Made by a program: the position numbers and the translations under genes
The notes under the pieces: generated by a model
What the model saw: the letters and a program-made list of their open reading frames with translations, nothing else
Databases searched by the model: none
Told to the model about the DNA's origin: nothing
Shown here: piece after piece, positions 6,451 to 58,906 of the stretch
Layout: every line of letters begins with the position of its first letter
Numbering within the stretch: the stretch's first letter is position 1
Assembly (NCBI GenBank): GCA_026874595.1
Contig: CM049317.1
Coordinates: 70,639,618 to 70,703,617 of the forward strand
Origin: Sipunculus nudus
Taxonomy: Eukaryota; Annelida; Sipuncula; Golfingiida; Sipunculidae
Direction: 5' to 3'
Length of the DNA: 64,000 nt

Positions 6451-6466
6451 GGTGTGATTTCATTCT

Positions 6467-6845: not shown

Positions 6846-6861
6846 GGTGTGATTTCATTCT

Positions 6862-9329: not shown

Positions 9330-9417
9330 ATGATCCAGACTTTGTGTTTCATAATTCTGGTTGTTCTAGGGGTAATAAGACCTGAGAGTTTCAAGGAGGA
9401 AAATGAAATGCCCGAGG
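9330..9417 (+). CDS. Exon 1 (signal peptide) of an NTF2-like secreted protein copy
   Basis: The ATG at 9330 opens a 29-codon exon starting MIQTLCFIILVVLGVI, a short positive/hydrophobic signal peptide, followed by a polar stretch. It ends G|GTAAAA, an intron in phase 1, the same position and phase as the exon-1 copies at 19843, 26409 and 58162. The nearest downstream exon-2 homologue (10929) is frameshifted, so this copy is probably not functional unless it splices to the exon 2 at 12786. I infer secretion from the signal peptide and family membership from the neighbouring copies. Confidence 0.5.
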
Positions 9418-10215
9418 GTAAAATATTTAAATAGTTTTATCATATTATTGCTATATTTATCGTCGTGGGATAAGCTTCAGTGTCCTAGTCACCAGGAAAA
9501 ACGTATAGTGAATTAAGTAGTTATATTTCATACAATAATACTTTGTTTTGCCTTTTCTCTTATATTATGATTTACTTAACACAGTCTTCCTAAGATCGCA
9601 GGGTTATTTACTACAACAAACAAGCAGCTGAATCATATATACCATGTAGTATGAAATATGGTTTAAACGCGAAGCACATCAATCAGCTAGATAGTTATTT
9701 ATGTTCAGTTATGCGACAGTGTACTAGTCATCACATTACTTTACTGTGTTTTCATGTATAGCCTCCTGGAAACATCTCTGTTCCAAAGCATCTTAGATAA
9801 ACAACGTTTTCCGTTTTCAATGTGACTCACAGTGTTTACAGATATGCTGGATACTCGGTCACAAGACAAGTTAAAATTTAAGTAACAATATCTCTTTACA
9901 GTCTCCTTAATCAAACACAAACAACATGCGCTTATTATTTACTGAGTTAGCTTCGATTAATTATTTTTTTTTCTCTCTTTATTTTTCTCATTACTTCTTT
10001 TCTTGTCCTTGCCAAATATACCCCCTTTTTTCGAGATCTGTATGTTCCAGGTCTCTCTTACTTAACACATCACTTGACTAGTTTTAAATAAATGACAATG
10101 AGAAAAATACCGATGCCAATGAAAGACAGATGCAGGAACAATCCCTGCTTTCGCAATGCATCATTAAATCACCATGCGAAGTGATTCATGTTTATCACCT
10201 CTATGCATTATTATA

Positions 10216-10590
10216 GGCTTCTGTGGTTACCTTGCTTCTGGGGATCAGGGGTAGAGCACAGGACTCAAAGCCGGGAGATCATAGGTTCGTTTCTTATTTG
10301 AGGCAGTTAGATTTTTCACGGTCGGCCCCTACCCATGATGAGCGCACTACAGGCTTGATTGGAAGGCCGTGCCTAACGGCCGTGTTTCACAAACAAACGA
10401 GTGCGCTTTTCGGGGGTTCCTCGGTGGTATGACCCAGCTATAAGGACAATTAAGCACCCATGATCCGCCGGTGCAGTAGCACCCGGCCTGGTTGACCTCA
10501 GTATAAACAATTACAGGAAACGTGATACTGCCCTGTCACGTAGTCTCAAACTGGAATCGAATTCCGCAGATGGACATATACGTAGTTAAG
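10216..10590 (+). mobile_element. tRNA-derived SINE, plus strand
   Basis: Same family as 6467-6845. It begins ggcttctgtgg, has an A-box-like ggggtagagcacagg and a weak B box (ataggttcgtttc), and ends in the shared tail gcagatggacatatacgtagttaag. The body shares ggccgtgcctaacggccgtg with the 8.2-kb copy. A stretch of extra sequence in the head distinguishes it. It lies in the intron between the exon-1 copy at 9330 and the exon-2 relic at 10929. Confidence 0.8.
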
Positions 10591-10928
10591 TTAGTATAAA
10601 CACATGGGGCAAATGCCTCCAGCAAAACACACTATAAAAAATAATTTTATAATGAAATCAGAAAAACATGTGGCAGATAAATTGTGAGACAAAAATTGCT
10701 ATTAAATAGTAATAGGCATGATTTGCCTTAGAAAATTATGATTGTGCCCAAATAGCATCGGTAAAATCCTAAATTATAACATTTAGTTGTAGCCTTCATT
10801 TAATTCATTGTGTGTGGGAGGTTTCGGCTCTACCCCTTCTTTTATGTTAACTGGACCAATGCATTGTACACATATTTATGTTTTAGAGGATTTTAAACGA
10901 TAATACTTGCAGGGATTTTTCATTAAAG

Positions 10929-11117
10929 ATGGAGTTATCAAACAAAAGATTAAAGAAACGGAGAAGATGTTCAGTGAACATTACGCTCCACGTGATCAGG
11001 ATTGGGAAGTTCAGCACTATAAGTCCTGATAACAATATAATCCGTGACACTAAACTTCAAAGCCTAACTCACTGTCTTGCGACTACGGTTCCTCATTCAA
11101 CGAATCCCAGGCCTAAC
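10929..11117 (+). pseudogene. Frameshifted exon 2 of an NTF2-like copy
   Basis: After an acceptor (cattaaag at 10921-10928), phase 1 reading gives DGVIKQKIKETEKMFSEHYA and then a tryptophan-containing segment ending QHYKS before a stop. This matches the helical start of exon 2 in the copies at 12786 and 26628. Shifting the frame by one base after HY continues as SPDNNIIRD, like the 'Y-x-P-(D/E)-A' turn of the family. A one-base insertion therefore breaks it. It follows the exon 1 at 9330 with matching phase. Confidence 0.5.
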
Positions 11118-12785
11118 TAAGTCTGGGTTAACATATTGTTCCTGATCCCTGCTGTCACTTACTGATGACTACTTCTCTTTGTTACGTAGCATGGTCCTTT
11201 ATATATGAGGATTTACCAGAAGGTTTTACCTTACCTAACCTTACAACCAATTTTTGACACGTGACTCATTTCTGGAATTCACCGGTTAATTCTAGCAGGC
11301 TTAGCCTTATTGTAAAAATGATTTTTACTTTTTATTCTATAAACGTTACAGCTTCTATACTAATCTGTACGGTATAAAGAACACCCTACAAGGCATCTGG
11401 AATGAGCCAATTAAAAATATTTTATGTGAAATTTGGTATTTAGTCTTTGGCATACGACAAATACCTGAATGTTATACCTCAACAAACCTGAACTTAATCT
11501 TCCTGAACTTTCCTCTGGACCTGTCTCTAGTCAATTATCATATGTTATGTCAAAATCAATTGCATATACATGTATCTCCATCTTAAATTTTTATTTATAT
11601 TGTGCGATACAGGATTACAAGAAAGATATATATGCCCGGTTTAAAGATCCCACATTTTGAGAAACAGTGGCCAAGGACCCGTGGGCCACTTCCTGATGCA
11701 AATTATTAATAAGCTAGTTCCTGAATATATGAACTATGACATGCATGTCTTTATGTCAACGCCTAAATAAACTAGAATAATATTCGTTGAAAATCTGGTG
11801 TATAAATAATTCTTTGGAAAGTCTAAAGTTAAATTTTTAATGACCTATGTAAAATAACCCTAATAGTCAAAGGTCAATCCGATTAGTTATTTCATTGGGT
11901 TGAGAAATTAAGCAGGCTGAGGCATTAAGTGTTGGAAATCCAGCAATATTCCCCTTTCGTTGGATCATTTAGCCATATGCTAGAAAATTATGAAAAAAAA
12001 AACCACTAGTTCCCCACCCTTAACCGGTCACGATATATATTCTTTTCATAGCCTCCTCTTCAGATAAAAGCTGATATGAACATCTCTTGATAAATACATA
12101 TGAAATTAGTTTACTTCCAACACATTAAATATATTTAGCACCAAGCAGCCAAGGCTAAAATCATCATCACCAAAGTATTAATCAGTTTTCGTCACATGTA
12201 CATATGTTGCAATATTGGGCTGCTATAATAAACACTGTCGGAAATTAAATTCACCTCCAAAGATCACGGTTGAACAAATGTAACATGAGTAATCAACTTT
12301 GGCGTTAACAGGTTATGTTATGATGAGAAAATATTAAGTGTGTAAGTTGCCATTGTATGTTAGTGCGCCACTGCAGCCTGTGTATACGGAAGATTACTAC
12401 ATATAGTTTGACCCCAAAAAATTGTTTCAAAATTTTGTGCAACATCTCCAAGCATGGCAATCAGAGTCTTTCTTCCACTAATGATGCAAACTGTGGCACT
12501 ACTATATGGCGAGAAAACATAAGGACTTATTCGGCAGACCAGCGGTTAGAGTTATAACAATAAGACTATTACTACATTCATGAATTAATAGACGGTTCTT
12601 TTTTCTCTTATTTCATTTGAAACTTAAATGCACTTGTTCGCAAGTATTTAGTGTACATGTACATGTACTTGTTCGCAAGTACACGAGTGTAATGTTGAAA
12701 AATCAATTTTAAGTGGAAAGTGAAATATAATTTTCTTGTTTGTCGTTATTTCAACACTACTTGCAATTAATTGCTCATACAATAG
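11118..12785. other. Intron-like non-coding stretch
   Basis: Nothing coding recognised. Poly-A and AT runs are common. Two TTCG-looped palindromes at 12632-12645 and 12665-12682 are the only notable structure. Confidence 0.5.
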
Positions 12786-13049
12786 CAACGATCCGGCTAA
12801 ACATTCAAGAAAAGGAGCACCTTTGGTCTAAGAAATGTGCTGAAAATAATACCAAGTGGATGGTTGAGCAATACTACAATCCTGAAGCCTTTTCAATGCC
12901 AGCTGGTTCACCAATGATCAGGGAAAGAGTAAGAGGTTTCTTTTATGTCTCTAAGTATCTGTTATTTTTGTGTTCACAGTCTTTTCAGCCCATAAACAAA
13001 AGTAAAATATGTGAAATAAGAACATCATATATATATATATATATACATG

Positions 13050-13089
<40 letters not shown>

Positions 13090-13390
13090 CTGATACACAT
13101 GTATAATATTTTCTACAGCTAGCAGATCACGATTTCTCAATCAAACTAAAATAGAGGCATGCACACGATTCAGTTGAGTGATGGTTACCTATATGTCTAC
13201 AATGACAAAGCCGTGAAGATCAACCATTACCGAGCAAGAGGAACCCTCAATGGGACTGGAAGGTAACGGGTTTAACAGTCTGGTAAAGGGTTTAACAATG
13301 TCCCTCTTTTTCAGAGATATAACTGTGTAGATTATAGACTCGAAAGATTGACAGTGGAAAGTTGAATATGACCTGTGGAGTTCGCAGTAA
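12786..13390 (+). pseudogene. NTF2-like secreted protein gene copy, exons 2-4, inactivated
   Basis: Exon 2 (12786-12928) is open and strong. It starts ATIRLNIQEKEHLWSKKCAE, contains WMVEQYYNPEAFSMPAG and ends at donor GTAAGA. Exon 3 (13119-13262) starts in the matching phase 0 as LADHDFSIKLK but meets TAG; one frame over, it continues with DGYLYVYNDKAVKINHY and ends TG-R|GTAACG in phase 2. Exon 4 (13315-13390) has the family ending but two in-frame stops (TAG, TGA). This is the DUF4440/SnoaL-like fold pattern: helix, Y-x-P-E-A, P-x-G-S-P, strand, W-K-V, D-L-W. A second, clean exon 4 lies 320 bp downstream. One stop plus one frameshift in exon 3 make it a pseudogene as assembled. Its exon 2 uses phase 0 at the 3' end, where the 26.6-kb copy uses phase 1. 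Confidence 0.65.
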
Positions 13391-13925
13391 AATAACGGTG
13401 AAAACGAAACATTCTAAATATAGAGGTTTCTTCAAATGTCCTTGGTTAACATTTGAATAAATATAAACAACCTTATTTTTGTCGCAGTGTTGAATAAATA
13501 AAGGATACACTGAACACAAGGTATGAGGTAATCTTTACTTTATATTTACCCGTACACGGTGAAACAAGCAGCTCACGGTTGTGGCTTTGGCTTAAGTTGA
13601 GACCATCTCACATCCTTGTACTCACTTCCCTGTGCTGACAGGCTTAGGGGGCTTATCATTAAAGCAATATTTCATCTAACGCGCAAAGTAAAGGATGTCC
13701 CTCTTTTTCAGAGATATAGCAGTGTGTAGTATAGACCCGAAAGATGGACAGTGGAAAGTTGAATATGACCTGTGGAGTTCGCAGTAAAATAACGGTGAAA
13801 ACGTACCGTTCTAAATAAAGAGGTTTCTTCAAATGTACTTGATTAACAGTTGAATAAATATTAACAGGCTTATTTTTGTCGCAGTGTTGAATAAATACAG
13901 GATTCACTGAACACAAGATATGTTT
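13296..13925 (+). repeat. Tandem duplication of exon 4 and its 3' flank
   Basis: The block 13302-13520 (tgtccctctttttcag through gaacacaag) recurs at 13696-13918 with about 10 percent difference. Each copy holds an acceptor, exon 4, TAA and about 130 bp of 3' flank. The first copy carries stops and the second is open. Confidence 0.85.
13712..13787 (+). CDS. Intact terminal exon (exon 4) of an NTF2-like copy
   Basis: Acceptor ctctttttcag, then phase 2 reading gives DIAVCSIDPKDGQWKVEYDL followed by WSSQ and TAA. This is the conserved last strand of DUF4440-type domains, where a tryptophan-lysine strand is followed by D-x-W-N/S-S. It is clean, whereas its tandem twin at 13315 has two stops. If any gene uses it, its exons 1-3 would have to come from upstream, where exon 3 is broken. 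Confidence 0.5.
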
Positions 13926-14789
13926 AGCATTTAACTTGCCAGCGGCATAGCTATAATTGTGTTTTGTCCATAATTGAAATCTACAAGTCCTTTGATACAA
14001 AGATACAACATATAAGAGGACATAAGGACACTGCTATTAAGCTTCTGTTCGATAATGATAAAGTCCTCTGCTTCCAGATTTAAACACGTTCGCTGCCTAT
14101 GATGGCTATACTTGTCATATTTTCTGATTTCTTCAGCGCCTATGACGGGTATACCCTTCGTAGATGCGTAGTTGTTAATATATAATTTATGGTATGAAAT
14201 GGAAAAAAATTGTATTTCATAAATGCGCTAGATTATTCGAAATGAGTTAAGTTGGGGGAGCGTGAACACATCCACGGCTCCCGTCCTTTGCCGTGAAATA
14301 AGTTCATGACCCGCTTTAGTGTGAAGTTGATTCCGTCTAGGAGTATTCCTTAGAATCAAACGAAAAAGAGGACCGTAAAAAAACATATGTCTACTTTCGG
14401 CAAACCCGGTGGTGAGACCGAGGTGTGATTGATATTTTTATTGCCAAGCGAGGACAGCCTATTGAGCAACCAACAACAAAGGGCGCGTGCCACGTGAATG
14501 ACAATAACACGCAGATCGAAAAAGTAATCAGAACCACGTTGCATAATATTGTTGTGGCTTATTTGGAGTAATTTCACGTGTCTTATACATTTATATATGG
14601 CAATACACATGTGTAAGTACCTTCACCAACAAGTGCATGTAAATTTTAATAAATTAAATAATTTCAAGCGAAACCCCCTGAAAATTCTGAATGATTAAAT
14701 GATCAGTGTACCTCTACCTCCACATTTTGGTAATGGTTTCCTTTCTTATCGTGCTTTACAAAAGTATTTCATAATCTTACATTATAAAT
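13926..14789. other. Non-coding stretch between NTF2-like copies
   Basis: No gene supported. Part of the sequence around 14240-14480 is less AT-rich and may be an old transposon. Confidence 0.4.
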
Positions 14790-15327
14790 CAAGATATTGC
14801 CATGGTTGCTGAAAATGATTATATACCTGTGGCATCTCAAATACCTCCAATGTCAGCTTTTACCAAGGGTTAAGGTAAGAGGACGTTGATATATTGTCAA
14901 TTAACTAAATAATATCAAGGTGTGATTTCTGAATTATAATTATAAATGAAAAGTCTATGGGGTGTTATTCGCATTTTCTATTTGTTTCAGATCAATGTTT
15001 GTGCAACACTGGAGGCATATCTTTTAACGAAAAAAATTATCGAGATTTATTAGAGTATACAGATAACACAAACCGAAAATCTGACGAATATCCTTTTATT
15101 TTAAAAATATAACCCCTTGGCCTTAACACCAGTCTAAAACGCAATGAGGTTGCTTTCTTAATAATAAATACTGATGGAATAATAGCTTATTTTACAAAAA
15201 TAAGAAAATCTGGCATTAAGAGATGTTTTTTGCATAATGGCCACGTCGATCTGTATGGGTAAGTTTCCATCCAAGAGCTTGATTATGATGAAAAGATAAT
15301 TAACGGATTCACTTAGGAGACTGGCAA
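14790..15327 (+). pseudogene. NTF2-like copy, exon 2 and exon 3 relics
   Basis: The end of an exon 2 is recognisable at about 14805-14873: by base alignment to 26690-26768 it keeps ATGG-TTGCT, CCTCCAATGTCA and the donor GTAAGA, but its last full codon is TAA. Exon 3 at 15174-15327 is exactly 154 bp, the same length as the intact exon 3 at 27130. It begins DGIIAYFTKIRKSGIK, ends ETGK and keeps the donor GTAAGA, but has two in-frame stops (after VDLYG and GFT) and its acceptor AG has become TG. Decay here is by substitution only. Confidence 0.65.
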
Positions 15328-17255
15328 GTAAGATCTTTGACCACTCTTGCTGAATTTCCACAAATATTGTTTGCAAGTATGTCAAATAGTTAAAAGGAAT
15401 TAATATGGGTTTTATTTCAGAACTTTGGTTATATTTGTCACTGATCTGTAAACTGATTACGACATGAAACAAAATTGGTGTTAACGGTATATGAATAAAT
15501 GAAAATCTTGTACACCAGCGGCTCTTCTGTCTGTGTGTAAAATGCATTCATAGATGTATATTCATGAAATGTTCATGACAGATTTACAATATCTTATTTC
15601 TAGGCCTTATATTATTATATGTCACAACTAAGTTGCCATGTAACAGTCGGCTATAACTTTAATGTTTTAAAACCATAATAAGCAATTATGAAATGAGGGG
15701 AGAATCTGCAACTATTGGATGTGCATCTCCCGGTGATCTTGTTAAAATGAACTCGCCCCAGCTTGCACTGCGTTTTTAGACTTTGACGCCTAAGTTTAAA
15801 ATGAAGCTTTCCTAGTACTGACACCACCGTTCAACGAAATTGAAAATTTATTGATATGAAAACAGGTTGAAATAAATAATATTAAACTTTCTTTCTATAC
15901 AGTCAACACATTTTTCCCATTTTATAATTCAAGGTCCATGGATTCCTTTCTACCTTTCTTTAGAAACCAAGTACACACCGTACAAATCGCAGACCTTACC
16001 GAAGATCCCGATTACTACCACTATTATTTATTTACTCTATTGTTATCTGTGATTCACTGGTGTGTTTCCAGGTATGATTTGTTTGTAAGGTTTTAATTTT
16101 CAGAGCAATGAAACAAGTCTGATCATTTCTAGAAAATGCCAACAACTAGTATAGCTTTATGGTGGATGTCAGGGGTACACGCTGTGTATTGTTTACATTT
16201 ATATAACTGTATAATGTTTAAGGCAGCTCTGTGCCGTGTTATTAGGTTTCTCATTTTCAGATCAATGTCCCGTTTCTCGGTCGGTGTAATCAATTAACTA
16301 GATGGCTAGATACTGAATCAGAGCAGAGAACCTTGCACTTTAGCATCTCTTCTCTATAGTATATACACCCGTTTTCACAATTCATTGTACACCTTATACC
16401 CACACTAGCGCAGCAATTATTGTTGGCCTGCATTTTCTGAACTTCAGTTTAGACAACAGGTGAAACAAGCCCGGACTTGCCTTGCCAGAAACATTAGAAA
16501 ACTGCAAGTACATGACAGTTAAAATGGGACTTATAAGCTTCCCCATTATAAGCAAATATAAGGGGATGCGGTTGTGAATGAAAAGGACTAAACTAAGATC
16601 GAGATAGTATTGCCAAATAGTCTATACAGTATATGAGATTAATGATAAAGTGAATCTAGGGTTTAACCATAAATGTTTATTACTATCCACATAATATTCA
16701 CAGATCTTATAATAAAAAATGATACTCAATGAAGCGTTTCGTTGATATGTATCGGGTATCCCTTTTTGTGTAAGTTATACATATTTTACCTAAATAGTCT
16801 GACCAATAAACTGCCCTTTATTAGGATATTATGAAGAAAACACAAATCGTCATATGCGATAATGACATTGTTTATATCAATTTACGGGGTTTTCATGAGG
16901 ACCATGTCATAACTGGTGTTAATGAACACAGAAAGCAGGCTTAAATGAAATTAATGCAGCCCCTATCCGTAGTTGCAATTTCATTAAACCGAAAACATTA
17001 ATCATATGGAATGTTTTACCAACGAACCTGTCCTAATGCTAATTTCATCTCTACACAAATATGATAATTTTATAATTCAATTTCTCGAGTGAAAAAATAA
17101 GAATTATGTCAAATGGGTTGTAGTCAAACGTCATGCTTTCCCTCTCACGATGATTATAGGAAGCTATTGACCTGCTACTTGAAAGATGCTAAGAATTATT
17201 TTAATTTCCAGCAAATGATTCAGGATTCGGTATTGCTCAGATCGGCCTGTTCATA
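15328..17255. other. Non-coding stretch
   Basis: No gene supported. From about 16730 to its end it is paralogous to 18625-19223 (shared phrases aagcgtttcgtt and aaatagtctgacc), so it is the upstream flank of the next exon-1 copy. Confidence 0.5.
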
Positions 17256-17460
17256 ATGAGTAAACTTGTTGTGGTTGTCTTGGTGCCAAAGAAATGTCAG
17301 TCTTTCGTAAACGATAATGGGGAAAATTAAACGGTAACAATTCGAAAAAAAATAGTATCGATATATATGGCCTCATGAAATATCTGAATGATTTATATGA
17401 TTTCACGTTTAAGATACCATGCAATAATAGGTGGCGACAGTTCATGTAAACAGCCAGAGG
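16730..17460 (+). repeat. Diverged paralogous unit (copies near 7.7, 16.7 and 18.6 kb)
   Basis: This segment and 18625-19420 align over most of their length, each leading into an exon-1 signal peptide at the same place. Parts of the flank are also present at 7690-7930. The units appear to have spread by tandem duplication together with the NTF2-like gene. Confidence 0.6.
17256..17330 (+). pseudogene. Damaged exon 1 (signal peptide) of an NTF2-like copy
   Basis: The ATG at 17256 reads MSKLVVVVLVPKKCQSFVND and stops at 17328 without reaching a phase-1 donor. Compared with the paralogue at 19224, about 10 bases of the hydrophobic core are missing, which shortens the signal peptide and shifts the frame. 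Confidence 0.5.
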
Positions 17461-17794
17461 GTGTATAACAAAGAAAATTTCTTAGAGTAAATGCCATGGT
17501 AAGGGGTTTCCCCATATGCTATAAATTCATATTTTTGGAAAATCAATAGTAGAAATTCTTAAAAATTACAGTATGTGTGTAGAAAATGTACTCATAATGA
17601 AAATTTAAATTTTTCAAATAGGGGAAAATGGAAGTCATTTAACTCCTGCATGGAAAATACTATGGTAAAAGATTTAGCTTATGCATGGGCGGATAACGAT
17701 TTGTTCCCGTTGGTACACAGGGAAATGTGTTTAACTGTTTAATAGCAAGTAACTGGCTAGACTTGTGAAAGTGTTTGTGGATGCAGATTGTCCA

Positions 17795-17940
17795 TGTCAA
17801 TCGAGCACCATAGGTTTATGATAAATCAACTGGACGAGGTGAAGGAAGAACGCTTAGAACTGTAAAAGAAGTGCAACGTCGATATGGTTACAGATATGCT
17901 TCGCAGGATGTATGGTCGTGTCATGGAAACACAATGACTA
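17795..17940 (+). pseudogene. Possible exon 2 relic of an NTF2-like copy
   Basis: One frame reads LDEVKEERLEL, stop, then KKCNVDMVTDMLRRMYGRV, which lines up weakly with EKEHLWSKKCAENNTKWMVE of the exon at 12786. A second frame of the same DNA is open for about 45 codons and ends at AG|GTACAA, but I do not recognise it. It lies downstream of the damaged exon 1 at 17256, as expected for exon 2. Weak. Confidence 0.3.
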
Positions 17941-19223
17941 CCAACAAATATAGGTACAACCTTGACCTAAACCATAATCTGAACTATTTATATATGCTTT
18001 AGCTTCTTTATATGTGTCATGTTGGCCTGTTAATGCTTAAATAAGATTACAGGCATTGTCATATGATCGACTGAATGAGGAATGGATAAAGACGTATTTG
18101 TGCTTCCATGAGAAGTGAACGATGGTAGAGAAATATTATTTATGGCCCTCCTTAATGTTGAAATCGATGCTCACATTGTATATTACTAACATTAAGCTAT
18201 TTATTGTACCTTTGTCTTCATTAAATTGTTATCTCGGCATGGTATGTATTTGATTATATAATCAATTATATTACTTCTTATTGTTCCAAACGTAAACTCA
18301 GCCAGTTCTTGATATCCTTTTAAACCTGCTTTTTTTCTGAACTTACTTCCGGTTCGACAACAGCTGACCTAGTGGACAAAGCCTAAGAAGTAAATCAAAT
18401 ACTAGTTAAAGAGGAGAAATATAAACCGGGACCCACCCTCCAATAAAAAACAAAAGAAAACTGTTTTAAAATATAACATGAGGATTGAGGTGTGATCGTG
18501 ACAACGACTATCAAACAAAATTTTAATACCCAAAAGTGTATACATTATATGAGGTATACGAGATTAAATATTTACCTTAACAATGGCGTATATTCTATAT
18601 TATTGTCCAAAGATATTATAATAAAACTGGTGCACAATAAAGCGTTTCGTTAATATTGTATCGGTTTATGGGTAATGCAATTTGTATTCTATCTAAATAG
18701 TCTGACCGATATCCAGCCCTATATGATCAGTAGGGTACGGTTAGTCACGACTTTCAAAAAGCCTTGGATAATTAAAAAGAATGAAGCACAGAGCGTCCTG
18801 TGCGATGAAGAGTTATATTTATAACAGAGTTATAGTAATCTTGGGGGAATTCATGAGGGCCATCTCATAATCGGTATTATTGATCAGAATTAGCAATATG
18901 AAGGCAAATAATGTAGCCGGCATCCTAAGTTATAATTTCGTTAAACCAGCAACATTAATTTTTTGCGATGTTTTCCCTACACACCTGTTCCAATGCTTAT
19001 CTCCTCATTTACATGAAAACAAGAACTTGTTATCAAATGAGTTGTGGTCCCACGTCATGGTTTCCCTTTTGTGATGGTTATGGTGATTACAGGGAGCTGT
19101 TGGACGGCTACATCTGTTACTTAAAAGCAATGGAGAATTGTTTAAAAATAAGTTATCTCTGATATAAGTTATCATTTTCTAACAACTGATACAGGATTTG
19201 GTATTGATGAGACCGGACTGTGC
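17941..19223. other. Non-coding stretch, second copy of the upstream flank
   Basis: 18400-18720 resembles 7690-7900, and 18625-19223 resembles 16730-17250. No gene supported inside. Confidence 0.5.
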
Positions 19224-19370
19224 ATGATGAGAAAAGTGGTTCCTGTCATACTTTTGGCTATCTTGATGCCTATAAGATGCCAGTCCATTGGAAAGAAGGG
19301 GACAGCACGCGATAAAGATCTGAAGCAATTTTATCGAAATATATGGAGAGAAAAAAATGCATATACATAA
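19224..19370 (+). CDS. Exon 1 (signal peptide) of an NTF2-like copy, donor altered
   Basis: Two consecutive ATGs open MMRKVVPVILLAILMPIRC, a well-formed signal peptide with a likely cleavage near RC-QS. At the position where paralogues have a phase-1 donor (G|GT) this copy has G|GG (aagaagg|ggacag). The frame instead runs on for about 20 codons to TAA at 19368. Either the donor is lost and this is a dead exon, or a short 48-residue secreted peptide is made. The next exon (19843) belongs to a different subtype. Confidence 0.4.
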   Translation: MMRKVVPVILLAILMPIRCQSIGKKGTARDKDLKQFYRNIWREKNAYT

Positions 19371-19842
19371 ATTTCGCACGCACCATCGGTCGTTCTGGCC
19401 CATTGACCGATGGAATTGCGCCAACAGTCAATCCATGGGTCGCTTATCAGTGTTTCTATGTTTTTTATTTTCGAAAGAATTACATCAAAATCACTATATT
19501 AAATGACGCAGAATTTTGAATATCAAGGGCAAACCTTCTAAAACCTCCTGAATGATAATAAAATTCGATGAGCCTCCTCAGCGTGGTGTAAAGTTAGAGT
19601 CTGTGTAAATCAATAGTAGTATAAAAAAAGAAATGTTTATATTGGCTATGAACGAGCTCTTTTCAAATGGGAAATAGAAACTGTAAATTGTCAAAATAAT
19701 TAAAAGCTTATGAGAAAAATAGTTCACGATTACGTCAATTTTATTAAAGGTTTCCTTGCTCCAGCAGTCGACGTTTTTATGACAGTACATTCTCTTATTC
19801 TTGTATATCTGGCATTTCGCCAAGCACGTACATCTCTGCACA

Positions 19843-20610
19843 ATGGGATATAAGTTGCTGCCTATCATTATATCTTTACTGTTTGCACTACATTCTTTAC
19901 TGATTCATGCTAGTTTTGGAGAAAGAGGATCAGGTGACAATTTTATGATTTAAATATATTTACCTCTTCTACTCATAAATCATAAACTTTCAAAATTCCT
20001 GTTTTAAATATAAAATTAAGATCATACACATGGTTTGATTTTTTATGACGCAGTTCAAGATACTGAGATAAAACAACTAAACGAGGACTTTGGAGAGTGA
20101 TTCAAGAAAAATTATACTGCCTGGATTGCAAAACACACTTAATAGGCTCACGCATTTCTGCGGCTCCAATGTCACCTATGATCAGGGGAATAGGTAATAA
20201 CAGGGTTATATAGATGAAATATAAAAAGTCATAATATAATATTGTCGAACATGATACGTTTGACGAAGACAAAGAACAACATATGCCACAAAGTTTATCA
20301 AAAGGGGCTAAGTGTCCATGATTAGAGATTTTGATTTTTACTACCAAATAAACTAAGAATAAAAAAAAATACCAGTAAGTAGAACATCAGACTATGCGAT
20401 GATGCTGATTGTGAACTCACCATGTTGTTTCTTTGCTTTAAATGTACCAACGGTGTTGTCTTAGCCATATATTAGTCTTCACCACTCAAACTAATGGGAA
20501 GGTTACTGGGTTATTTCACAAATTCGATAACAGCCTACTTTAACAGTATAAGGCAGTCTTGGGTAGAAACCTGGCCGATTTATCGTGCCCCATTCAGATA
20601 ATAAGGTCAA
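19843..20610 (+). pseudogene. NTF2-like copy (subtype of 26409), exons 1-3, inactivated
   Basis: Exon 1 (19843-19933) is intact. It starts MGYKLLPIIISLLFALHS, nearly identical to the exon at 26409, and ends in phase 1 at GTGACA (weaker than GTGAGA). Exon 2 (20054-20193) keeps both splice sites and the reading VQDTEIKQLNEDF but has TGA, then TAA-TAG, and is one base short (140 versus 141). Exon 3 (from 20522) keeps ITAYFNSIRQSWVETWPI, its acceptor is AA instead of AG, and the alignment is lost after about 80 bp. This is the sister copy of the gene at 26409, now dead. Confidence 0.75.
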
Positions 20611-23324
20611 ATAATAAGGTCAGTATTGAGGTCAGCCGGGGTCAAAATGTTATGAGATTATCCCCGTGGCCAAAATCTAGAAACTGACGACTCATTATTC
20701 CTATAGCTAGAGGAAATGGATCAAATGATCAATGTATAGCCTGATTTAGGTATTACCACACACCAAAAGTTTTGGCTTACATATGTTCACGAATTACACA
20801 AAGTAAACGTACCTGATCAAGTAAGGTTGATGCAACTCAGGATTTTGTAAAAAGCGCCATGATAGGGATAGGGGAAATTGAAGTGACCATAATTACATCA
20901 GTGTTTATCCAGAAAAATAAAGTGCCCATCTTATAGTTGCATTTAACAAGCCTGTTTAGATGATGTTTTACTTTTTCTTTAATAAAAGCTCTCTCAAACA
21001 AATGCCATTATGGGCGCTTCAATGGCGGTAAAGTCACGTCGATTATTATTTTCATTTTTTTTAGTCAATTGCCATCACAGCTTTTTATGGTTTGTTTCAG
21101 GTAGTCGGCAATGGTCACAGACTAATTTTTTTCTAGATCTTACTTTACAAGTACAGTTTGTATTGTAATGGTACAGTTTACATTTACTCCTTAACAGAGA
21201 AATTATATGAGTAAGGATATGTAATATGTTAACACAACACAGACAGAACAAGGGGTAACAGGAATCACAATTAAACTGTTTTAAATAGCCCTTGATAGAT
21301 TATAAATCTTGGCCATATTTTATCACCATCTTTTAACAAAAACGATCAGAAAATGAGCAATATAACCTCGAAATACCCAATGGTCACAGTTAATGCTAAA
21401 TGGAATAAAACAATTCGCTTTTCTCCACTGTGGTAGTCATATTGCAGCTATCTGAATGATTTATTTTCGCCTTTTACCTTTTTCTAATCTATTAACATAA
21501 AAAAGTGATAAAGTACACTTTTAAGAAAAAAAAAAAAAAAAGAAACCATGTGCCCTTGAGTAAAGCATCATCCGAACAAATCATTAGCATGCAATAATAT
21601 ATGGTTAAATGAATATGCATCTTTTTGTCATTGTTGGGGTCATGTTAATAGTCATTCCTTAATCTTATTCATGTCATTTTACTTGAATCGTGAAACCCAG
21701 TCAAAAGCCTGCTGATACCCTCATATGTCTACTGAAACTGTTTTAAGAGCATTAACATAGGCACTTAAAAGAGAAGGTAATTCTTTGCCGCCACATTGGC
21801 TACCATTGTAGGGACTATAAAAAGCTTCGTTTGGTTAGTCATGAGGCACCTCTTACTTCTCCATCTTAATGAAAAATGCAATTCGGTTATGCATGTAAAT
21901 TAATAGAGTAGTTCATCAATGATTCAGATACAATGCTAATTTCTGCACCTTCTCAGCAATTGTTTTACAGTAAATGCTCCGGTGTGACTTTATTTGCACT
22001 GAAATAGACACTGGTCCATTATACAGAGTAGCATCTATATAAATATTTTATATGTGATGGCTAAAATATAATGAAAGGATGTGCCTTTATCGCTAGGTAA
22101 GCATCATAGTGACTGCCATATTTATAATTTGTGACTAGACTTTTTTAAAAAGAAATGTAAAACATCATTCATAGTCCTCCTTATACTGTCGACACTTTTT
22201 TGCTTTAACGACTTTATCATAAGCAATAAGCTAACATGTATGGACCTTAGACTTCGTGTCTAATTTAGATCTCACAAAGTATGATCTCTTTTTTTGTCTC
22301 AATATTTAAAATGTGATAAATGACACTTAAGGCTACAGAAAAGAAATATTTTTTTTTTAATCCAGGGGGAGAGCTGAAGCTCCCTGATAAGTTTATTCTT
22401 TTATATATTGATAAATCATTACTTTCTGGATTTTGGTCAAGGCGATCATTCCACAGCCGCTTGAGACCTGTTGATCCCAATACTGACATATGTACCGCCT
22501 TAGGTTGCAGTCTACTGGGAACGAGAAGAGAGAGAAAAAAAAAAAAACATAACAATTTGCACTAGTAATATTGATTTATATATCGGCTCATTACATACCT
22601 AAAACAATACTTATTCATATAAATGTCAATCATTCTGCGCATCTGCCCATGTGTATGCTTCTTGTATAAAGGAACAGAGCTGTGTCAGCGGCGATATATT
22701 TCGATATTTATGTAATTTTTATTATGAGGGCAAAAATAATAATTAATCCTTTATTAATCCTTAACACAAGAACTGATCCTTCAAGTTAAAGCAGGTCAGG
22801 TAGATGACCTTGGTTAAACACCACCTGACACACCTGGACACCGTCAACTTTTGTACAAAATCAATACGCGCTTTTGAACCCTAACCAATGGACCGTGCCT
22901 TTCCAGACCGCAGCATTGTTCTCGGAACAATAACCTAACGGCCGAACGCACGTTTTACTTTGTCTTTTAGTAAAAATAAGCAGCAAACGTACCGGGTAAC
23001 CTATAACCAGCACGTCACCAAGGATTGTCCACACAACATAAACTGCTCATATATGCAGCGTTAAAAACCATACCATTTCAATAAGACCGTCTTACCTGAA
23101 AAGCGCAGCACGTTGCACGAAACTTCGTAGTAGTTCGCCACAAGAACCAATTCAGTAAACGTATATGAAACTACTACAAACTTCATCATACGCCTCCCAG
23201 TCGAGTTTTTTTTGTTCTTCATTGTTACACATAATCACTTGTTACGGAACCTAATAAAAAAAAGATCACGTATGCCTGATGAACACAAATTCTGTAACGG
23301 AGATAAAAAAAAAAAAACAGAATC
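20611..23324. other. Non-coding stretch
   Basis: No gene supported. Poly-A tracts occur at about 21526-21541 and 22537-22548. The part from 22790 to 23130 is relatively GC- and CpG-rich and has a strong donor-like CAG|GTAAGACG on the minus strand near 23090. It may be a 5' exon or an old transposon, but no reading frame backs it. Confidence 0.4.
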
Positions 23325-24001
23325 TGTAACACTAGGCAGCGTGAAATGTCTAGGGGAATGAATAAAGAAGTCAGTGTTTTTTTGTTAACAAATAACTATA
23401 ATTTATTCTTAAAACAACCCCAACATTACAATACACTAAATCTGTAGAATTATACAGTAAAACAGCGGTACAGCAACAAGTCAATACAATCACATAGAAA
23501 ATAATGTGCACAGTACCTAGATACCAACACCATCACAACGATAAGTCCTTTAAATGTAAACTCTCGGAGAATGACAGTCCAGTGGAAAGTTCTTGCAGCA
23601 ACCCAGAAAGTAAACTAAAGTCCAAATGCATAACATCCAGGAGAAAGTCTTTGAAAATCTATAATTGTCGCATTCGTCGGATAAGGTCCTGACACACGAT
23701 TCTGCGTCCGCTGGAATCTGTTCTGCTGTTCTCTCTGCCCTGCTTAAACACAGCCCCTTTATATACTCTTCATCCAGAGCCGAGAATTTTCCACTTCTCG
23801 AACAGTCTATAAGATCTTGCACAACACGCGTCTCAGGAGTTCTCTAGAAAAACAGCGCTGCGTGTCTCCACACACCATGGTGTACACGTGACTCACGACC
23901 AAGCCAGCAGGACAACAAGAGTTCAACTGGTGCTGATTAAACATATAATGTAACAAGCGGCCAGGCAAGAGCGCTACAACATGAGTTACGCCCGTGTCAC
24001 A
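23325..24001 (-). mobile_element. Probable solo LTR of a retrotransposon
   Basis: On the minus strand the 677-bp unit starts TGTGACAC and ends GTGTTACA, the TG...CA inverted ends of an LTR. It contains a TATA box (GAGTATATAAAGGGG, plus coordinates about 23754-23769) and, about 350 bp further, an AATAAA polyadenylation signal (23402-23407) about 75 bp before the end, giving a U3-R-U5 layout. No gag or pol lies next to it. Flanking duplication is unclear (aatc on one side, caat or aata on the other). Open frames inside are short and probably incidental. Confidence 0.5.
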
Positions 24002-24881
24002 CAATAAAAAGGGCACATGCAACGCACTCCAAACTAATGAACGGCCACATAGAGACCTATGCCAGTGATATTTATTCCTGTTGGCTTGTAGAAAATAGCT
24101 TTCAGCAAATATATGTTCAGAGCCCAAAAAAATATTTGCCGATGAATATATGATAGATTCGAAATGCTTCATATAGTCGAAAACAGACATTACTTTTCAT
24201 GTTAAAATGGTACGATTTATCAGCCAGTTTAGATCATATTTTTTTCATTCAATAGCAGTGATATAATGTAATCATAATTATTTTGCATGCGTTCCATCTG
24301 TTATATTCTGGAAAAAACCTTTTGGTTTTCTATCTACCAATATAGGTTTATAGCACTAGAGCTATGTTTTGCATTGATAATGCAGATGAAAAAAGACTTA
24401 CTGGTGCTCTCTCTGTTTTAGAGTCCTGTCTGTCTGGGGGAAGGGTCCAAAAGCGGGTCAGTGGAAAATAGGAAATCAGATCTGGAGCATCTCATGAAGG
24501 CAATAATAATAAGTCCTGAAATAGGATTCTGAATAAACAGGAAAAAGTATTCAAAATCCATAGTGTTTCATGTGCTAGCTCCGGGAGTTTGTAAGAAGAT
24601 GTGTGCACTGCCGGGCTTGTTATATTTGACTTTGTATGGGCATTGCTACAATAGGCATGAAATCAGTTGTTATTAAACGTTTTCCTCCAGGTCGGGCTAA
24701 CAAATAAGACAAAAAAATGAAAAGAATATTTACAAAAGAACTTCTGTGTTCATTTTTTTTCATATTAGACTTCCGGTTGCGTAAAAGAGCCACAACAGTG
24801 ATCGACCCGTTATCTAAGGAAGGGACATTATGTGGACTCGTCTTAAGGCGCCTGTTTTCTTCACGATGCTTGCTTTATATA
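24002..24881. other. Non-coding stretch
   Basis: Nothing recognised. It ends at the TA that flanks the pogo-like element. Confidence 0.5.
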
Positions 24882-25900
24882 CAGTGAACTCCTGCATGAC
24901 GACCACACCGCTTACACGACCTCCCCGCTAATACGACCACTTTTCTTGGTCCCAGAATTGTCATATATAAATTATCATATAAAAAACTTCGGTAACACGA
25001 CCATCCTGCTATCACGACCAACCACCACCTTTCTTGGTCCCGTCCTTCAGTTGAGCCCCAGTATCACGACCACTGGCCCGTGGCGACCGCGGCCCGTGGA
25101 GCAGATCACACGCTCATCGACCAACATGGACTTAGTTAATAGCCCGTTATTAATTAGCCGTATGAAGATCATTGGCCCGTGGCGAACGCGGCCAGTTGAG
25201 CAGATGACACGCTCATTGTCCAGCTCATTGTCAAAGCCCGTGATTAATTAGCCGGACCCGTGGGAAAGCTCGGTTTTATCTGCCAAGCCTTAGTTAGGCT
25301 TGTTTGTAATGCCGCCAAACCTGTCAGCCAACTATACGTATCAACGGATATCGGACTCCATGGTCCGTTACATTGTTTTTTGAGTACGGCTATTAGACTA
25401 GCATTTAACATACTGGTCGAAAAGGAGTTTGCCAAACATAACTATCACCACATACATAAATTCAGGTGAGTTAAGTGAAACTGTGACAAATCACATTTCA
25501 ATGATCAAGCAGGAATCATATGAATAACACATAGAATTTGATGTGTTAATTATGTTCTCACTACGTTTTCGACATCAGACCATCTGCGTGTTAAGACCAA
25601 TGCTGTTAGAATGACTCCAACGCCAACTCGTAAAAACCTAAAGAGTTTAGCCTCAAGGAAAGGATAGATATTATCGAGACCGCCGTGACTCAGCCCGGTA
25701 CAAGTAAAAAAAACTAGAAACTCAGTTTGGGATTTTAAATTAAACAGGGACAACAACTTAATATTTACTTGAAATACCCATACTTTCGCCTACGTCAATA
25801 TTGGCAGGTTTATGTACAAACATCCCGCTAACACGACCACCCCGCTAACACGACCACTTTGCCTGGTCCCGCAGGTGGTCGCGTTAGCGGGGTTTTACTG
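24882..25900. mobile_element. pogo/Tigger-like non-autonomous transposon
   Basis: The left end reads CAGTGAACTCCTGCATGACG and the right end, reverse-complemented, CAGTAAAACCCCGCTAACGC; both continue into cgACCAC. TA flanks both ends (24880-24881 and 25901-25902), as for Tc1/mariner/pogo elements. The subterminal regions repeat short 'cgctaacacgaccac' words. Inside there is a direct repeat of about 80 bp, period near 100 bp (around 25068-25150 and 25168-25250, ggcccgtggcg...cacgctcat). No transposase-length frame is present, so it depends on another element. Confidence 0.8.
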
Positions 25901-25902
25901 TA

Positions 25903-26408
25903 TTTCAATAGTGACAAAAAGAAGGCAGTTAACTCCCTCAAATGTCAGGTTTATTAACAGATCCCTGGAAAATGATGGAAAAGATCGACATAACGCACTC
26001 ATTCAATGAATTTAATGTCAACTTAATTATGAAAACTTACTTAAATGCATGGGTTCATAAAACATTTCTGCATCTTTTAGCTTTGTCTATAAAGAAGGAT
26101 TACTTAAACAGGGGAATATTGAGATTGACTCTTTGTGTTATTCGTGTTCTGGGACCTCTGTTTGTTTTCAACGGGAGGCAGAACACCTCAGCTGATTAAA
26201 GGTCCATCTGTTACCACATGTCCTCATATGGAAAAACACTTGTCAAGCTTCATCATTAGATCAAATAATTAAATAAATAGGAATAGACTTTGACAGTTTA
26301 ATGTAATGTTTTTGAGCCAACAGTGATTCCAACGATCAACAATATTAAAACAGTGCTTTCTCCAGTCCTGCTTTATTGGTCAGACTCACATTCACGAAAA
26401 TCTCCGCT
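25903..26408. other. Non-coding stretch upstream of the best NTF2-like copy
   Basis: This is the candidate promoter and 5' UTR region for the gene starting at 26409. The 25 bp before the ATG (catctctgc/aatctccgc type) resemble those before the sister copy at 19843. No TATA box is evident in the last 100 bp. Confidence 0.4.
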
Positions 26409-27283
26409 ATGGGATATAAGTTGCTGCCTATCATTATATCTTTATTGTTTGCACTTCATTCTTCACTGATTCATGTTTGTCTGGGAGAAAGAGGATCAGG
26501 TGAGAATTTTATGATTTAAATATATTTACCGCTTCTATTTATAAATCATAAATATTAAAAGTTCCAGTATTAAACACAAGCAATATATATATGAGATCGA
26601 ACACATGTTCTGATTGTTATAACGCAGTTCAATATGCTGAGATAAAACAAAAAGACGAAGACTTTGAAGAGAGTTTCAAGATAAATAATACAGCATGGAT
26701 TGCTAAACACACTTACATGGCTAGCGCATTTCTACTGGCTCCAAGGTCACCTATAGTCAGGGGGAAAGGTAATAATATGATTTGTATGGACATATCCGAA
26801 CACATAACATAATGTTGTATGAATTTGATATATATGACTGTCTCCGTTTCAGGAAGCCAAAGAATCATCTTATTCATACAGAAAAAATCACATTGTTTAT
26901 CAGTATGAGGTTAAACCAATGGTAACTATTAAAAGTTTAGGGTTATTTTATATCTGCTACCGCAAAGCTACAAATAGTAATCAAACAATGATAACAAATT
27001 TGAATTTCACCAGAAGATGCGCGATGCCAAACGTGACTTCACCACCATGTCTCTGTTCTTTTGTGTGTACCAAAGATTTTGCAATAAGTCTTCATCACTC
27101 TAACACAAAGGCCTTCCATTATTTCACAGATGGCATAACAGCTTATTTCGCCAAAATACGACAGTCTGGGATTGATAAATGGCCAATTAATATCACTTTC
27201 GTCGATTCCTATCTCAAGGTCACCGTTCAAGTTGTTCATTATGCGGAAAAGGCAGCAAATGGAAACATCAAGGAGACCGGCAA
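26409..27283 (+). CDS. Secreted NTF2-like (DUF4440/SnoaL-type) protein, exons 1-3
   Basis: Three open exons with consistent splice sites: 26409-26499 (signal peptide MGYKLLPIIISLLFALHSS, donor GTGAGA), 26628-26768 (acceptor aacgcag, donor GTAATA) and 27130-27283 (acceptor atttcacag, donor GTAAGT). Phases are 1, 1 and 2. Exon 2 gives the helix VQYAEIKQKDEDFEESFK, then AWIAKHTYMASAFLLAPRSP and VRGK. Exon 3 gives DGITAYFAKIRQSGIDKW, INITFVDSYLKVTVQVVHYA and ends ETGK. The order matches DUF4440-like proteins: 'D...Y...P-G-x-P...G', helix, strands, 'G-K' before the last strand. The catalytic or ligand-binding role of this family is generally unknown. I expect an extracellular protein of about 150 residues if complete. 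Exon 4 (W-K-V...D-L-W) is not found with confidence; a weak candidate lies at 28490-28548. Without it the last beta strand is missing. Confidence 0.6.
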
Positions 27284-28365
27284 GTAAGTAGTTGTACTTG
27301 TTATCGCTGCAGAAGTAATAGTAAGAGCTCTGTATTCCTTCAAGGAAGCTATTTATCAGAAATAAATACATGTCAGGATTACTTTGAGTGGTGTGTAACT
27401 GTCCAGTGTAAAGGTTTGGAAAAAGGATTGTAAGGTCGTACATTTTCCACCGACTAATGATGTACACATAAACGTTAGCCTTTCTCAAGTGAATGTATAC
27501 AAAAGATATTCGTCATTTTTATGTAGGTAAAGTTAACATTTTGCGTCGAGGACGATCGGAAGGAAAGGGAAAAAAAGTACAAATTCCGAGACAGATATAA
27601 TCGTCTACAGGCCATTAAGGACCAAAGCTCAATATTGAAGGATAGCCATGTTGATTTAATAAAATAAGGATATGATTGTAAAATAAATGAAAAGTAATAA
27701 TAAGCAATCGAGACGTAAAAGGATATCGATGAGAGATGCCTGAGGTTTCTTTTTTCCAATCGTTGCCAATAATTGATTCAACAATTTAAAAGCAACCAGT
27801 TGACACCTCGTTTGTTTACCAGGCTGTATTTTCTAATATTAAAGAAACAGATACAAGGTCTCAGCTGTGTGGCGGCAGAACTTTACTAATCAAATGATTA
27901 AATATTCTTCTGTTAAATGTTCGCACGAAATTAAAAGACCAAGTACTAATATTTAAAAGTTGACAAAGCTTATCAAATGAGCAAATCAAGTGAAAGTTTG
28001 ATATTCTTTTCCCGCTAACCAATAGCTGTCAGCAAAATCAACGGTGCATTTCCAATATATTCGACGTTCCACAGTAACGGTATTTTTGTACCAACAAATT
28101 AAGATTACTCTGTATGACTCTTTGGATCTTTTGTATGCTCTCTCATTCCAAGGGTGCTTTCATGTCAGTGACCTAGAATTATTATTTTTCAGATCCTGAT
28201 TTATCTTGATTAACTATAAATATAAAGATAAACATTCAGGTTTTCCTTTCAAATCCTTCATTATTTAATTTAATAATGAATAATATAATGTGATGAATAT
28301 GTTGTATGCATAAAGAGATTAGGCATCAAGATGATGACTGTGAATAGAGGTTTAAGAAAAATGAT
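27284..28365. other. Intron or downstream flank of the NTF2-like copy
   Basis: No convincing exon 4 was found here. 27284-27488 is paralogous to 15328-15545 after the exon-3 relic. Frames on the minus strand across this region are mirror readings of exon 3 and are not genes. Confidence 0.45.
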
Positions 28366-28548
28366 ATTGCCATAATTGTTGAAAATTATTATGGTCCAAA
28401 GGGTAAAGATAAGAAGTCGTTCTTCTATCGTCATTTGACTATATTAACATCACAAGCCAATTACTCTGAGGTGTTGTTATAACGTTTCAGGTTGCTTTTA
28501 ATTCAAGTGGTTTATAAAAAGAAAATATATGTGGCCTGTTGTTCGCAT
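28366..28548 (+). pseudogene. Very degraded NTF2-like exon fragments
   Basis: 28366-28410 (gatattgccataattgttg) aligns with the exon-2 relic at 14795-14830, and the following sequence aligns with 14890-14990. At 28490-28548 an acceptor (aacgtttcag) precedes a short frame ending in TAA whose last 25 bp (tatgtggcctgttgttcgcattaa) resemble the exon-4 ending at 13765-13787. Both matches are weak. The second could be the missing exon 4 of the gene at 26409, but its reading (no W-K-V) does not preserve the motif. Confidence 0.3.
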
Positions 28549-28555: not shown

Positions 28556-28602
28556 CGACCTCGGCTGAGATTCGAACTCACGATCTCCCGGCTTTGAGTC
28601 CT
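28556..28602 (-). mobile_element. SINE head fragment
   Basis: On the minus strand this is the tRNA-like head only: GGACTCAAAGCCGGGAGATC, then the B box GTTCGAATCTC. It matches the 6.5-kb SINE almost exactly, but the body is absent, so it is a truncated copy. Confidence 0.75.
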
Positions 28603-30790: not shown

Positions 30791-30794
30791 CTAA

Positions 30795-31522: not shown

Positions 31523-31525
31523 TAA

Positions 31526-41769: not shown

Positions 41770-41777
41770 GGGCTCCG

Positions 41778-56957: not shown

Positions 56958-58161
56958 TTTGAAGATTGAGTTTTTCCAAGCTTACCATGAAAACAAGCAT
57001 TTAAGGCTCATATTCAACATCATGAAAAGACTCTTGGATATGTCTATGAATTTATTTATCTTCGATATTTTATGAATTTCCGGTAGGTAAAATTTGAATT
57101 GGGATATAAATTTATAAAACATAAACAATAATCAGAATTTATATTTTCGAGTAAAATGTTCAAAACATTAAGCGCGTGTAATTACTGAGAAAAGTCGGGT
57201 TAAAAATGAGTGCATTTAAGCTATATACCTAATTGTTTCAGTAAAACAGTAAAATTTTTCTATAATTTTCCATAGAATGACAACCAATGACATGTGTTAT
57301 GTAGAATATGTTCAACGAAAACGCACCTTACTTCCGTTATTTTATTGCACTGGTTTAAGATGCAAGGTTTCACGTATGACAGCAACGAAACACTTAGACC
57401 CACGCCGATTCGCACTGCGTAAAATTTTGGCACACCCAAGGAACGAGAGGCGTGTTCCAGCTGACTCGTGGCTATTTACCCTGCTTGATTAGTTATCAGG
57501 TGCAAAAGTGATATCTATCAACAGAAGCACTGACCCCACGTACCGAGCTCAACCCTATCTCTAGCCAGAGGACCACTACACGTGCGTTAGCTTGCTATTT
57601 TATTCCTCGTTTCTTCTCTTGCAACATATAGACATGTACATGAAAACAAACGGACAGTATGCTTCGTTTGTAAATAAATTTATTATAACTTTTCATATAG
57701 AGTAATGTTTGTTTTAATTGCAAGACATTTGGTCAAACATGAAATACAGAATAATTAAGAACAATGTGTTTAACAAGGAGACCAGATGTTGACCGGTCCT
57801 AGAAGCATTATCATACAGTTTGTCTAAACCCATATGTACATTACTGATACGCCAATAATAACTGTTAAGTTACCCGAACAGTATAATCACTATACAGTGT
57901 CGTCAGTATACAGTTACACTGTACACCCGATTACAATTTTAGTTAAAGTTCTTTGGCGGTATTTGGCGAATCATGCAAATTCCATAATTAATAATTCCAT
58001 AATTCATAATTACGTTAAGGTTGAAAAATACCGTTCAAATTGTCAGGATATTGGGTCATCTTCATTGCCTTATAATTAATCAGCTAGGTCAGGATTCTGT
58101 AACACCTTTACTTATATTCATAGAGGTTGTATTGGGAAAGGTCGAACCACCAGTGATATTG
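56958..58161. other. Non-coding stretch; one unassigned small frame
   Basis: An ATG at 57277, directly after a pyrimidine tract and AG, opens 71 codons (MTTNDMCYVEYVQRKRTLLP ...). Not recognised, and its CpG-richer sequence may be an old transposon. No promoter is evident before the gene copy at 58162. Confidence 0.3.
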
Positions 58162-58906
58162 ATCAAGGCGATTATTCTAATACTTTTGGCTATGCCAATG
58201 CCAATATGGTGTGATAATACCAAGGAAAAGGTTGGACATTCAACTGGTAAACATTTTTAATAAATTGGATATGTAAGACAAGCCGTGATTGGTTCAATCA
58301 TACAATATGATAATGTTTTATATTTAATATTTATGTTCAATTTTGTTCCATCATAATTTCACGGGCAGAAGGAAGACGTGCATACTTCAGAAATGATGAA
58401 AAAGAAGGCATTACAGATATTGTACGGGGCATAGTTCACATTGAAGTTTACAGAGATCTTGCTGTGAAGATATTTAATTATACAGAAACAGGCAATGGCG
58501 TCATCATGCAGCAGGGCAAGTAAGAAAAAAAACCTGACTCATTCATTCTTTTATCTCAGTTTTTTCAATGTCAGTTGTGAACAGGCAAAATATTTTGTTT
58601 TTTCTTATTTCTCTCTTTCCCTTCTAGTATTAAGGGAAAAAAAGTAACGTACGCTGCACACTTAAGAATGGGGACATAATGTACAAAACGAACATCTCAA
58701 AGAAGAGTTTTCAAATCACAAATATGTTTCCTCAATCTTCTTAAACATATCGACTTTGCTCAAAGGTATGGTAAGATTGACTGAACCAGAAAAGTTAAGT
58801 TATATAACATTTTGTCATGTTTCGCTTTAGCGACATATGTATCTGGGTGAGCTACCAATCAGATAGACGCTGGAAAGTGGCATATGACTTGTGGAGTAAC
58901 TCCTAA
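58162..58906 (+). pseudogene. NTF2-like secreted protein copy lacking exon 2 and start codon
   Basis: Exon 1 homologue: open to 58246, ILILLAMPMPIWC core, then NTKEKVGHST and a phase-1 donor GTAAAC. At the place of the paired ATG-ATG of the 19224 copy it reads ATA-TTG. Only 122 bp follow before exon 3 (58369-58519; EGRRAYFRNDEKEGITDI, HIEVYRDLAVKIFNYTETG, MQQGK; donor GTAAGA), so exon 2 is absent. Exon 4 (58831-58906; acceptor ttcgctttag) reads DICIWVSYQSDRRWKVAYDL then WSNS and TAA, the best match in the window to the D-x-W-N-S ending. Exons 3 and 4 have no lesions and phases 1 and 2 fit. Exon 1 could splice to exon 3 in frame, but no ATG is found in that frame upstream. Either exons 1-2 are lost by deletion or a start lies on an unseen exon. 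Confidence 0.65.

Follow-up and report, generated by a model that had tools for sequence, protein, structure and literature searches.

The stretch of DNA analysed here, called the window throughout, is 64,000 nucleotides long and corresponds to C12:70,639,618-70,703,617 in the 1.43 Gb genome of Sipunculus nudus (C12 is contig CM049317.1). It contains nine sets of remains of one four-exon gene, all on the + strand, and none of the nine is complete. The remains were identified by a six-frame exon-profile scan with the reversed window as a control, by local translation and by comparison of the window with itself. An original prediction, made from the window sequence alone, had described at least seven damaged copies sharing one gene plan. 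These copies are real, and their number becomes nine when a scrap of exon 2 at 28351, which is the weakest member, and a copy at 58 kb are counted. The intron phases proposed at that time, 1, 1, 2, were seen again in eight complete genes outside the window.

Exon homology was well above chance level in the self-comparison of the window. Among the strongest DNA repeats were 19825-20264 with 26393-26838 (80% identity, E 5e-106) and 13298-13525 with 13695-13922 (91% identity). Because sequences used to train a profile match it by construction, matches of training sequences to their own profile were excluded as evidence. The exon-2 piece at 10937-11020, never included in training, was detected with E 0.011 by a profile made of window copies only, as compared to 0.53 for the best match in the reversed window, and with E 1.1e-6 once intact genes were included in profiles that still left it out. 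The exon 4 at 24422 initially gave E 0.13 with a profile that did not contain it (best match in the reversed window, 4.5); its identity was established by the phase-2 acceptor, which is correct, and by C10 relatives that are 72-75% identical. The window copies fall into at least three subfamilies, and every copy is broken. A weak exon-4-like frame at 1017-1151 on the - strand (E 0.12 and 0.58 in two profile scans) perhaps reflects chance.

The surroundings of the window were examined by searching the genome with three protein queries, which gave at least 61, at least 95 and at least 81 matches at E <= 10. At E <= 0.01, merged exon places numbered at least 125, with at least 103 on C12, at least 20 on C10 (72.5-73.9 Mb) and at least two on C14. 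The cluster on C12 extends over about 640 kb, from about 70.555 to 71.197 Mb, and has the window inside it; at least seven of its at least 103 exon places belong to the window. We read 20 stretches of 10 kb and chained the exon matches outside the window into 24 groups. Eight of the groups, giving at least eight such genes in the genome, are complete genes: A70571, A70787, A70909, A71066, A71151, B70821, B71031 and B71111. Each has four exons encoding 153-156 amino acids, phases 1, 1, 2, AG/GT at all junctions and a single terminal stop, and the first exon is hydrophobic in all eight. For the B type, exon 1 was recognised because three copies are conserved some 680 bp upstream of exon 2. A70571 lies upstream, with its end 61 kb from the window, and the seven other complete genes start 83-448 kb downstream of the window. 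Five of the 16 other groups start at the edge of a stretch that was read, so that their first exons lie outside the view; the remaining ones are missing an exon, consist of one scrap or are interrupted in frame, and they include scraps on the - strand located 42-73 kb upstream of the window. Broken copies also occur in the 90 kb upstream of the window and in the C10 clusters. Weak clustered matches at C2:21.336-21.365 Mb and C9:17.002-17.009 Mb (E 0.045 to 3) were not counted; they are possibly further distant members.

The presence of complete genes both upstream and downstream argues for a living family subject to birth and death rather than for one that is simply dying. The description of the locus as a decaying array was not supported as worded, since the window is one part of a cluster with complete genes on both sides. 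The family, its exon plan, the lesions, the cluster and the complete genes are the observed part of this account, and we place high confidence in them. As judged from the sequences, it is also very probable that the window represents a run of broken copies within a large living multigene family. Tandem duplication of blocks would keep producing copies and lesions would eliminate old ones; the window copies are all broken, and complete copies survive on both sides. The earlier observation was thus sound and the guess at the family right in substance, but the window alone misled on decay.

The lesions differ from copy to copy, as originally predicted. Translation and reading of the junctions showed stop codons, interrupted frames and missing splice sites. 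In copy 1, the putative signal-peptide exon (9330..9417) has an open frame and a phase-1 donor; a relative of this exon, itself in the profile's training set, was found at C12:70,564,642 with E 0.015. Exon 2 of copy 1 (10937..11020) is truncated and its reading ends soon after. Copy 2 retains an open exon 2 (12786..12928), identified by translation and exon profiles; a search with a complete B gene also reached it (E 2e-4), and its donor is out of phase as read by eye. Its exon 3 (13119..13262), supported by the same two approaches, is split across two frames. The last exon of copy 2 is present in two tandem versions, one at 13315..13390 with stops (translation, self-comparison) and one at 13712..13787 that is open (translation, exon profiles). 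Copy 3 consists of an exon 2 remnant at 14793..14870, supported by self-comparison and by a profile in whose training set it is included, and resembling C10 copy L043, and of an exon 3 at 15174..15327 (E 1.4e-5). As predicted for this exon, two internal stops were found and the acceptor is lost, with CTG in place of CAG by eye.

Copies 4 and 5 are each represented by a putative signal-peptide exon supported by self-comparison and profiles, and no further exon of either was found in the window scan. The exon of copy 4 (17256..17327) is shortened and that of copy 5 (19224..19319) has no donor GT; both defects had been recognised before. Copy 6 comprises exon 1 (19843..19933), exon 2 (20054..20193), an exon 3 remnant (20522..20583) and a last exon (24422..24497). 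Exon 2 had been predicted to contain stops, and shows both stops and an indel. At the exon 3 remnant the acceptor reads CACAA instead of CACAG, AG being changed to AA. The last exon, overlooked in the original prediction, is open to its stop, has a phase-2 acceptor and lies 3.8 kb past exon 3.

Copy 7 has open exons 1 (26409..26499), 2 (26628..26768) and 3 (27130..27283) with canonical junctions. A last exon had been reported missing from this copy, and a search for one found none. The claim can be refined by comparison with L025, a sister copy on C10, which is 93% identical over 199 bp: homology between the two ends already at 27310, and in L025 the last exon follows exon 3 at a distance of about 110 bp. 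The missing exon is therefore a difference from the sister, and most likely a loss. Copy 8 is limited to the exon 2 scrap (28351..28404), which has a 41-nt repeat in common with copy 3 (78%) and was not reached by the exon-2 profile including complete genes. Copy 9 was recognised by profiles through exon 1 (58153..58246), in which GTG replaces the ATG of A-type genes, and an open last exon (58831..58906). It also has an open exon 3 (58369..58519) with 67-75% identity to three exons 3 of the A type. No exon 2 of copy 9 was found with exon profiles in six frames of the window.

A profile search had been named beforehand as one point on which the assignment to the NTF2 fold (DUF4440/SnoaL-like) would stand or fall. 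Single window proteins and a first alignment of window copies gave nothing usable against Pfam, NCBIfam and PDB, and the same first alignment used as a profile had no PDB match. Only fuller sets of exons, or fuller profiles, gave matches. PDB 3hx8, a putative ketosteroid isomerase that we take to have the NTF2 fold, was matched by combinations of window exons with E 0.0022, and by a profile built from copy 7 and six complete genes with E 1.2e-6, the match covering almost the entire domain. Two complete genes covered positions 1-107 of the 107 positions of the DUF4440 model collinearly. Bacterial relatives of 3hx8 were gathered from 19 loci, and 12 were used in a profile-profile comparison. With hhalign, the window copies alone, in a profile where no row mixes exons from different copies, gave a probability of 98.6% against these 12 DUF4440 relatives, as compared to less than 1% for ten of ten column shuffles. 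The complete-gene set gave 98.5%, whereas the best of 20 shuffles gave 1.1%. In control runs, none of five shuffles matched DUF4440; one of two exon-order swaps, in which exons 3 and 4 were still adjacent, gave a weak match (E 0.05). The match that had been sought was thus found, with the caveat that the Pfam gathering score was missed. On the basis of significant full-domain profile matches, the window family can be assigned to the NTF2-like superfamily.

A scan of viral contigs showed no relative of the family. The sole DUF4440 match over the cut-off in the family search of the same genome, L020 (C131:5823-6119), was not counted in the family because it is an unspliced, bacterial-looking gene with bacterial-type neighbours; the frames beside it presumably correspond to EF-P- and lysyl-tRNA-ligase-like proteins. 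Contig C131 as a whole looks bacterial and is likely to be a symbiont or a contaminant.

The relationships between copies were studied through exon-3 identity. Copy 9 groups with the downstream A genes (67-75%) and copy 7 with C10 copies (81% to L024), while copy 6 is a near twin of copy 7 at the DNA level. Despite its label, A70571 groups with other upstream genes (75-85%) and stands apart from the A genes downstream (18-22%), and the B genes form a further group. In the MGYKLLP type, all six copies read on C10 have stops or broken frames, so this subfamily may be lost entirely; considering C12 and C10 together, every copy read is broken or incomplete. Five A-B pairs, with members 6.7-7.5 kb apart, were found at 70,788/70,796, 70,910/70,917, 71,024/71,031, 71,067/71,075 and 71,104/71,111 kb, and the other A genes have no B partner at this spacing. 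The recurrence of the pairs fits duplication of multi-gene blocks.

We also compared the ratio of nonsynonymous to synonymous substitution rates (dN/dS) in 28 pairs of complete genes. Eleven deep comparisons with estimable dS gave values of 0.23-0.49, indicating that constraint acted, though dS is often above 1. B71031 and B71111 are complete, nearly identical and recently made without lesions. Among the broken copies, copies 6 and 7 are identical at 83 of 90 positions in exon 1, 98 of 119 in intron 1 and 87 of 106 in exon 2. Exon 2 is therefore as diverged as intron 1, as expected after loss of function. Complete and broken copies coexist in tandem clusters, and the family is a birth-and-death multigene family, in line with the evolutionary mode put forward at the outset.

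Several results nevertheless count against the account given so far. The best complete gene reached 20.7 bits with PF14534, under the DUF4440 gathering cut-off of 25.2 bits. DUF4440 was matched by two of 12 combinations of window exons (E 0.0005 at best, still under the curated cut-off), and two unshuffled combinations in the control run matched no family, consistent with this proportion. In alignment A3, two of seven sequences matched DUF4440. Because the PF14534 cut-off was missed, the family was filed as NTF2-like and DUF4440-like and not as a member of PF14534. On the evolutionary side, dN/dS was 0.45-1.04 in eight recent pairs, some of them near neutral, with few changes underlying the values, and nine of the 28 pairs had no dN/dS value (dS not estimable in eight, zero in one). 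Finally, copy 7, with its three open exons, could in principle use an unrecognised last exon.

The rest of the window is rich in repeats. A long terminal repeat (LTR) retrotransposon occupies 39907-46752 on the - strand. Its 1151-bp ends (39907-41057 and 45602-46752) are 99.6% identical, which points to a recent insertion. An integrase frame (42332-43759) precedes an RNase H frame (41269-41796), an order that is presumably that of GMR1-like Ty3/gypsy elements; no match to a reverse-transcriptase core was found in the three frames scanned. In its gag-like frame (43763-44878, - strand), a SCAN domain over the Pfam cut-off adjoins a zinc knuckle. Two segments, 48013-51740 and 52531-56209, form a direct duplication of about 3.7 kb with 95% identity, parts of which are common to 36.4-39.6 kb. 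Another repeat is common to 30257-32471 and 58934-60312 (86% over 589 bp, more at about 70%), and its second occurrence starts about 30 bp past the last exon of copy 9. A short repeat that looks tRNA-derived is found on both strands at 6455-6855, 8149-8482, 10234-10660 and 28559-28602; one copy lies just at the Rfam tRNA cut-off and is the sole, borderline, Rfam match. The window ends with a satellite-like array (61121-63927) made of units of about 700 bp and shorter sub-repeats, 68-81% alike.

These repeats raise the question of whether transposable elements, and not tandem duplication, spread the exons. The repeat-rich context and the LTR element at 39.9-46.8 kb would suit such an origin, but introns are retained, including the intron 1 common to copies 6 and 7, the nine window copies are all on one strand and the A-B pairs recur with similar spacing; we consider a spread by transposition very improbable. 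Scarcely any weight, and slightly less still, is given to the pieces being alternative exons of one long gene. The tandem last exons at 13315 and 13712 and the lone signal exons at 17256 and 19224 would be understandable in such a gene. However, the stop codons, disrupted frames and missing splice sites are not the same from copy to copy, and compact complete genes of the same plan exist elsewhere. It could also be that the whole family is dying, a formerly useful gene set decaying throughout the lineage. None of the nine sets of remains in the window is unbroken, the six MGYKLLP copies read on C10 are damaged, several C12 matches outside the window also contain stops and some recent pairs have dN/dS near 1. 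Set against this are the intact junctions of the eight complete genes, dN/dS values below 0.5 in the deep comparisons and the near-identical complete copies B71031 and B71111, recently made free of lesions, so that we regard general decay as improbable. A living family with a locally broken stretch is therefore the interpretation that we retain.

As to function, the hydrophobic, signal-like first exon is followed by three exons that together encode a single NTF2-like domain (DUF4440/ketosteroid-isomerase-like); the whole protein has about 155 amino acids. This arrangement suggests a secreted protein with a pocket. If the proteins are secreted, the NTF2 cone may bind a ligand that is small and largely hydrophobic, acting as a carrier or a sink, and a changing set of ligands would favour turnover of the copies. 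By analogy with secreted carriers encoded in other clusters, binding or carriage of small molecules is the likeliest role, though it is put forward tentatively. The ligand-binding or effector role and the possible lineage specificity proposed in the original prediction are likewise conjectural. Its main rival is that the products are secreted enzymes, of the steroid or polyketide isomerase or cyclase type. The closest solved relative, 3hx8, is named as a ketosteroid isomerase, and SnoaL-type relatives are cyclases; but the name of 3hx8 is itself putative, and, as read by eye, there is no acid among the seven residues that are invariant in the alignment (C, F, A, P, G, Y, G). Enzymatic activity appears rather unlikely, while still deserving consideration. 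Carrying the small-molecule carrier role further, one may picture a fast-changing secreted NTF2-fold family of carriers on at least three contigs, with duplication of gene sets on C12, as an NTF2 counterpart of lipocalin or odorant-binding arrays, perhaps in chemical signalling or immunity, in which whole subfamilies such as MGYKLLP are lost while others multiply. We offer this wider picture as speculation.

More generally, the locus illustrates that a family need not be dying because its genes are broken in one stretch. With complete, near-identical and ruined copies over about 640 kb, the cluster is suited to the study of gain and loss in a putatively secreted family, and its numerous natural versions of a single fold could be used in binding tests.

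DUF4440-type domains are known mainly from bacteria. PF14534, the bacterial SgcJ-EcaC/DUF4440 proteins and 3hx8 are collinear with the window family over nearly the whole domain, and DUF4440/3hx8 and the window family have in common a W...D.W ending and a G-I turn after the third helix. In contrast to bacterial DUF4440 proteins, the window family is split by introns, has a hydrophobic leader and forms a large tandem array. In our literature search, SnoaL was not found together with Mollusca, nor SnoaL-like among the papers listed for bivalve terms; NTF2-like was absent from the papers of another listing, and a separate search brought up nothing on the window family. NTF2-like domains are reported to have no common sequence motif and to include catalytic as well as non-catalytic versions (PMC3924330). 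Animal proteins with DUF4440 domains are described as an abundant 13.7 kDa protein in Anisakis simplex (PMC7407331) and as a skeleton protein of the sponge Vaceletia combining Ig and DUF4440 domains (PMC4633127). Going by these descriptions, both resemble the window family in having a DUF4440-type domain in an animal, and the Anisakis protein also in its small size; a tandem array figures in the available portion of neither account, and the sponge protein is multi-domain, unlike the window family. With respect to evolution, expansion of C1q-domain genes is reported for bivalves (PMC6835236). C1q resembles the putatively secreted window family as a tandem expansion of a secreted invertebrate family, but the domain is unrelated and its role is in immune recognition. 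The major urinary proteins of the mouse are secreted carriers of ligands, encoded in tandem arrays that include many pseudogenes. Although their lipocalin fold differs from the NTF2 fold here, so that the likeness is evolutionary only, they resemble the window family in being small, clustered and, if the window family is secreted, secreted proteins whose genes are often gained and lost.

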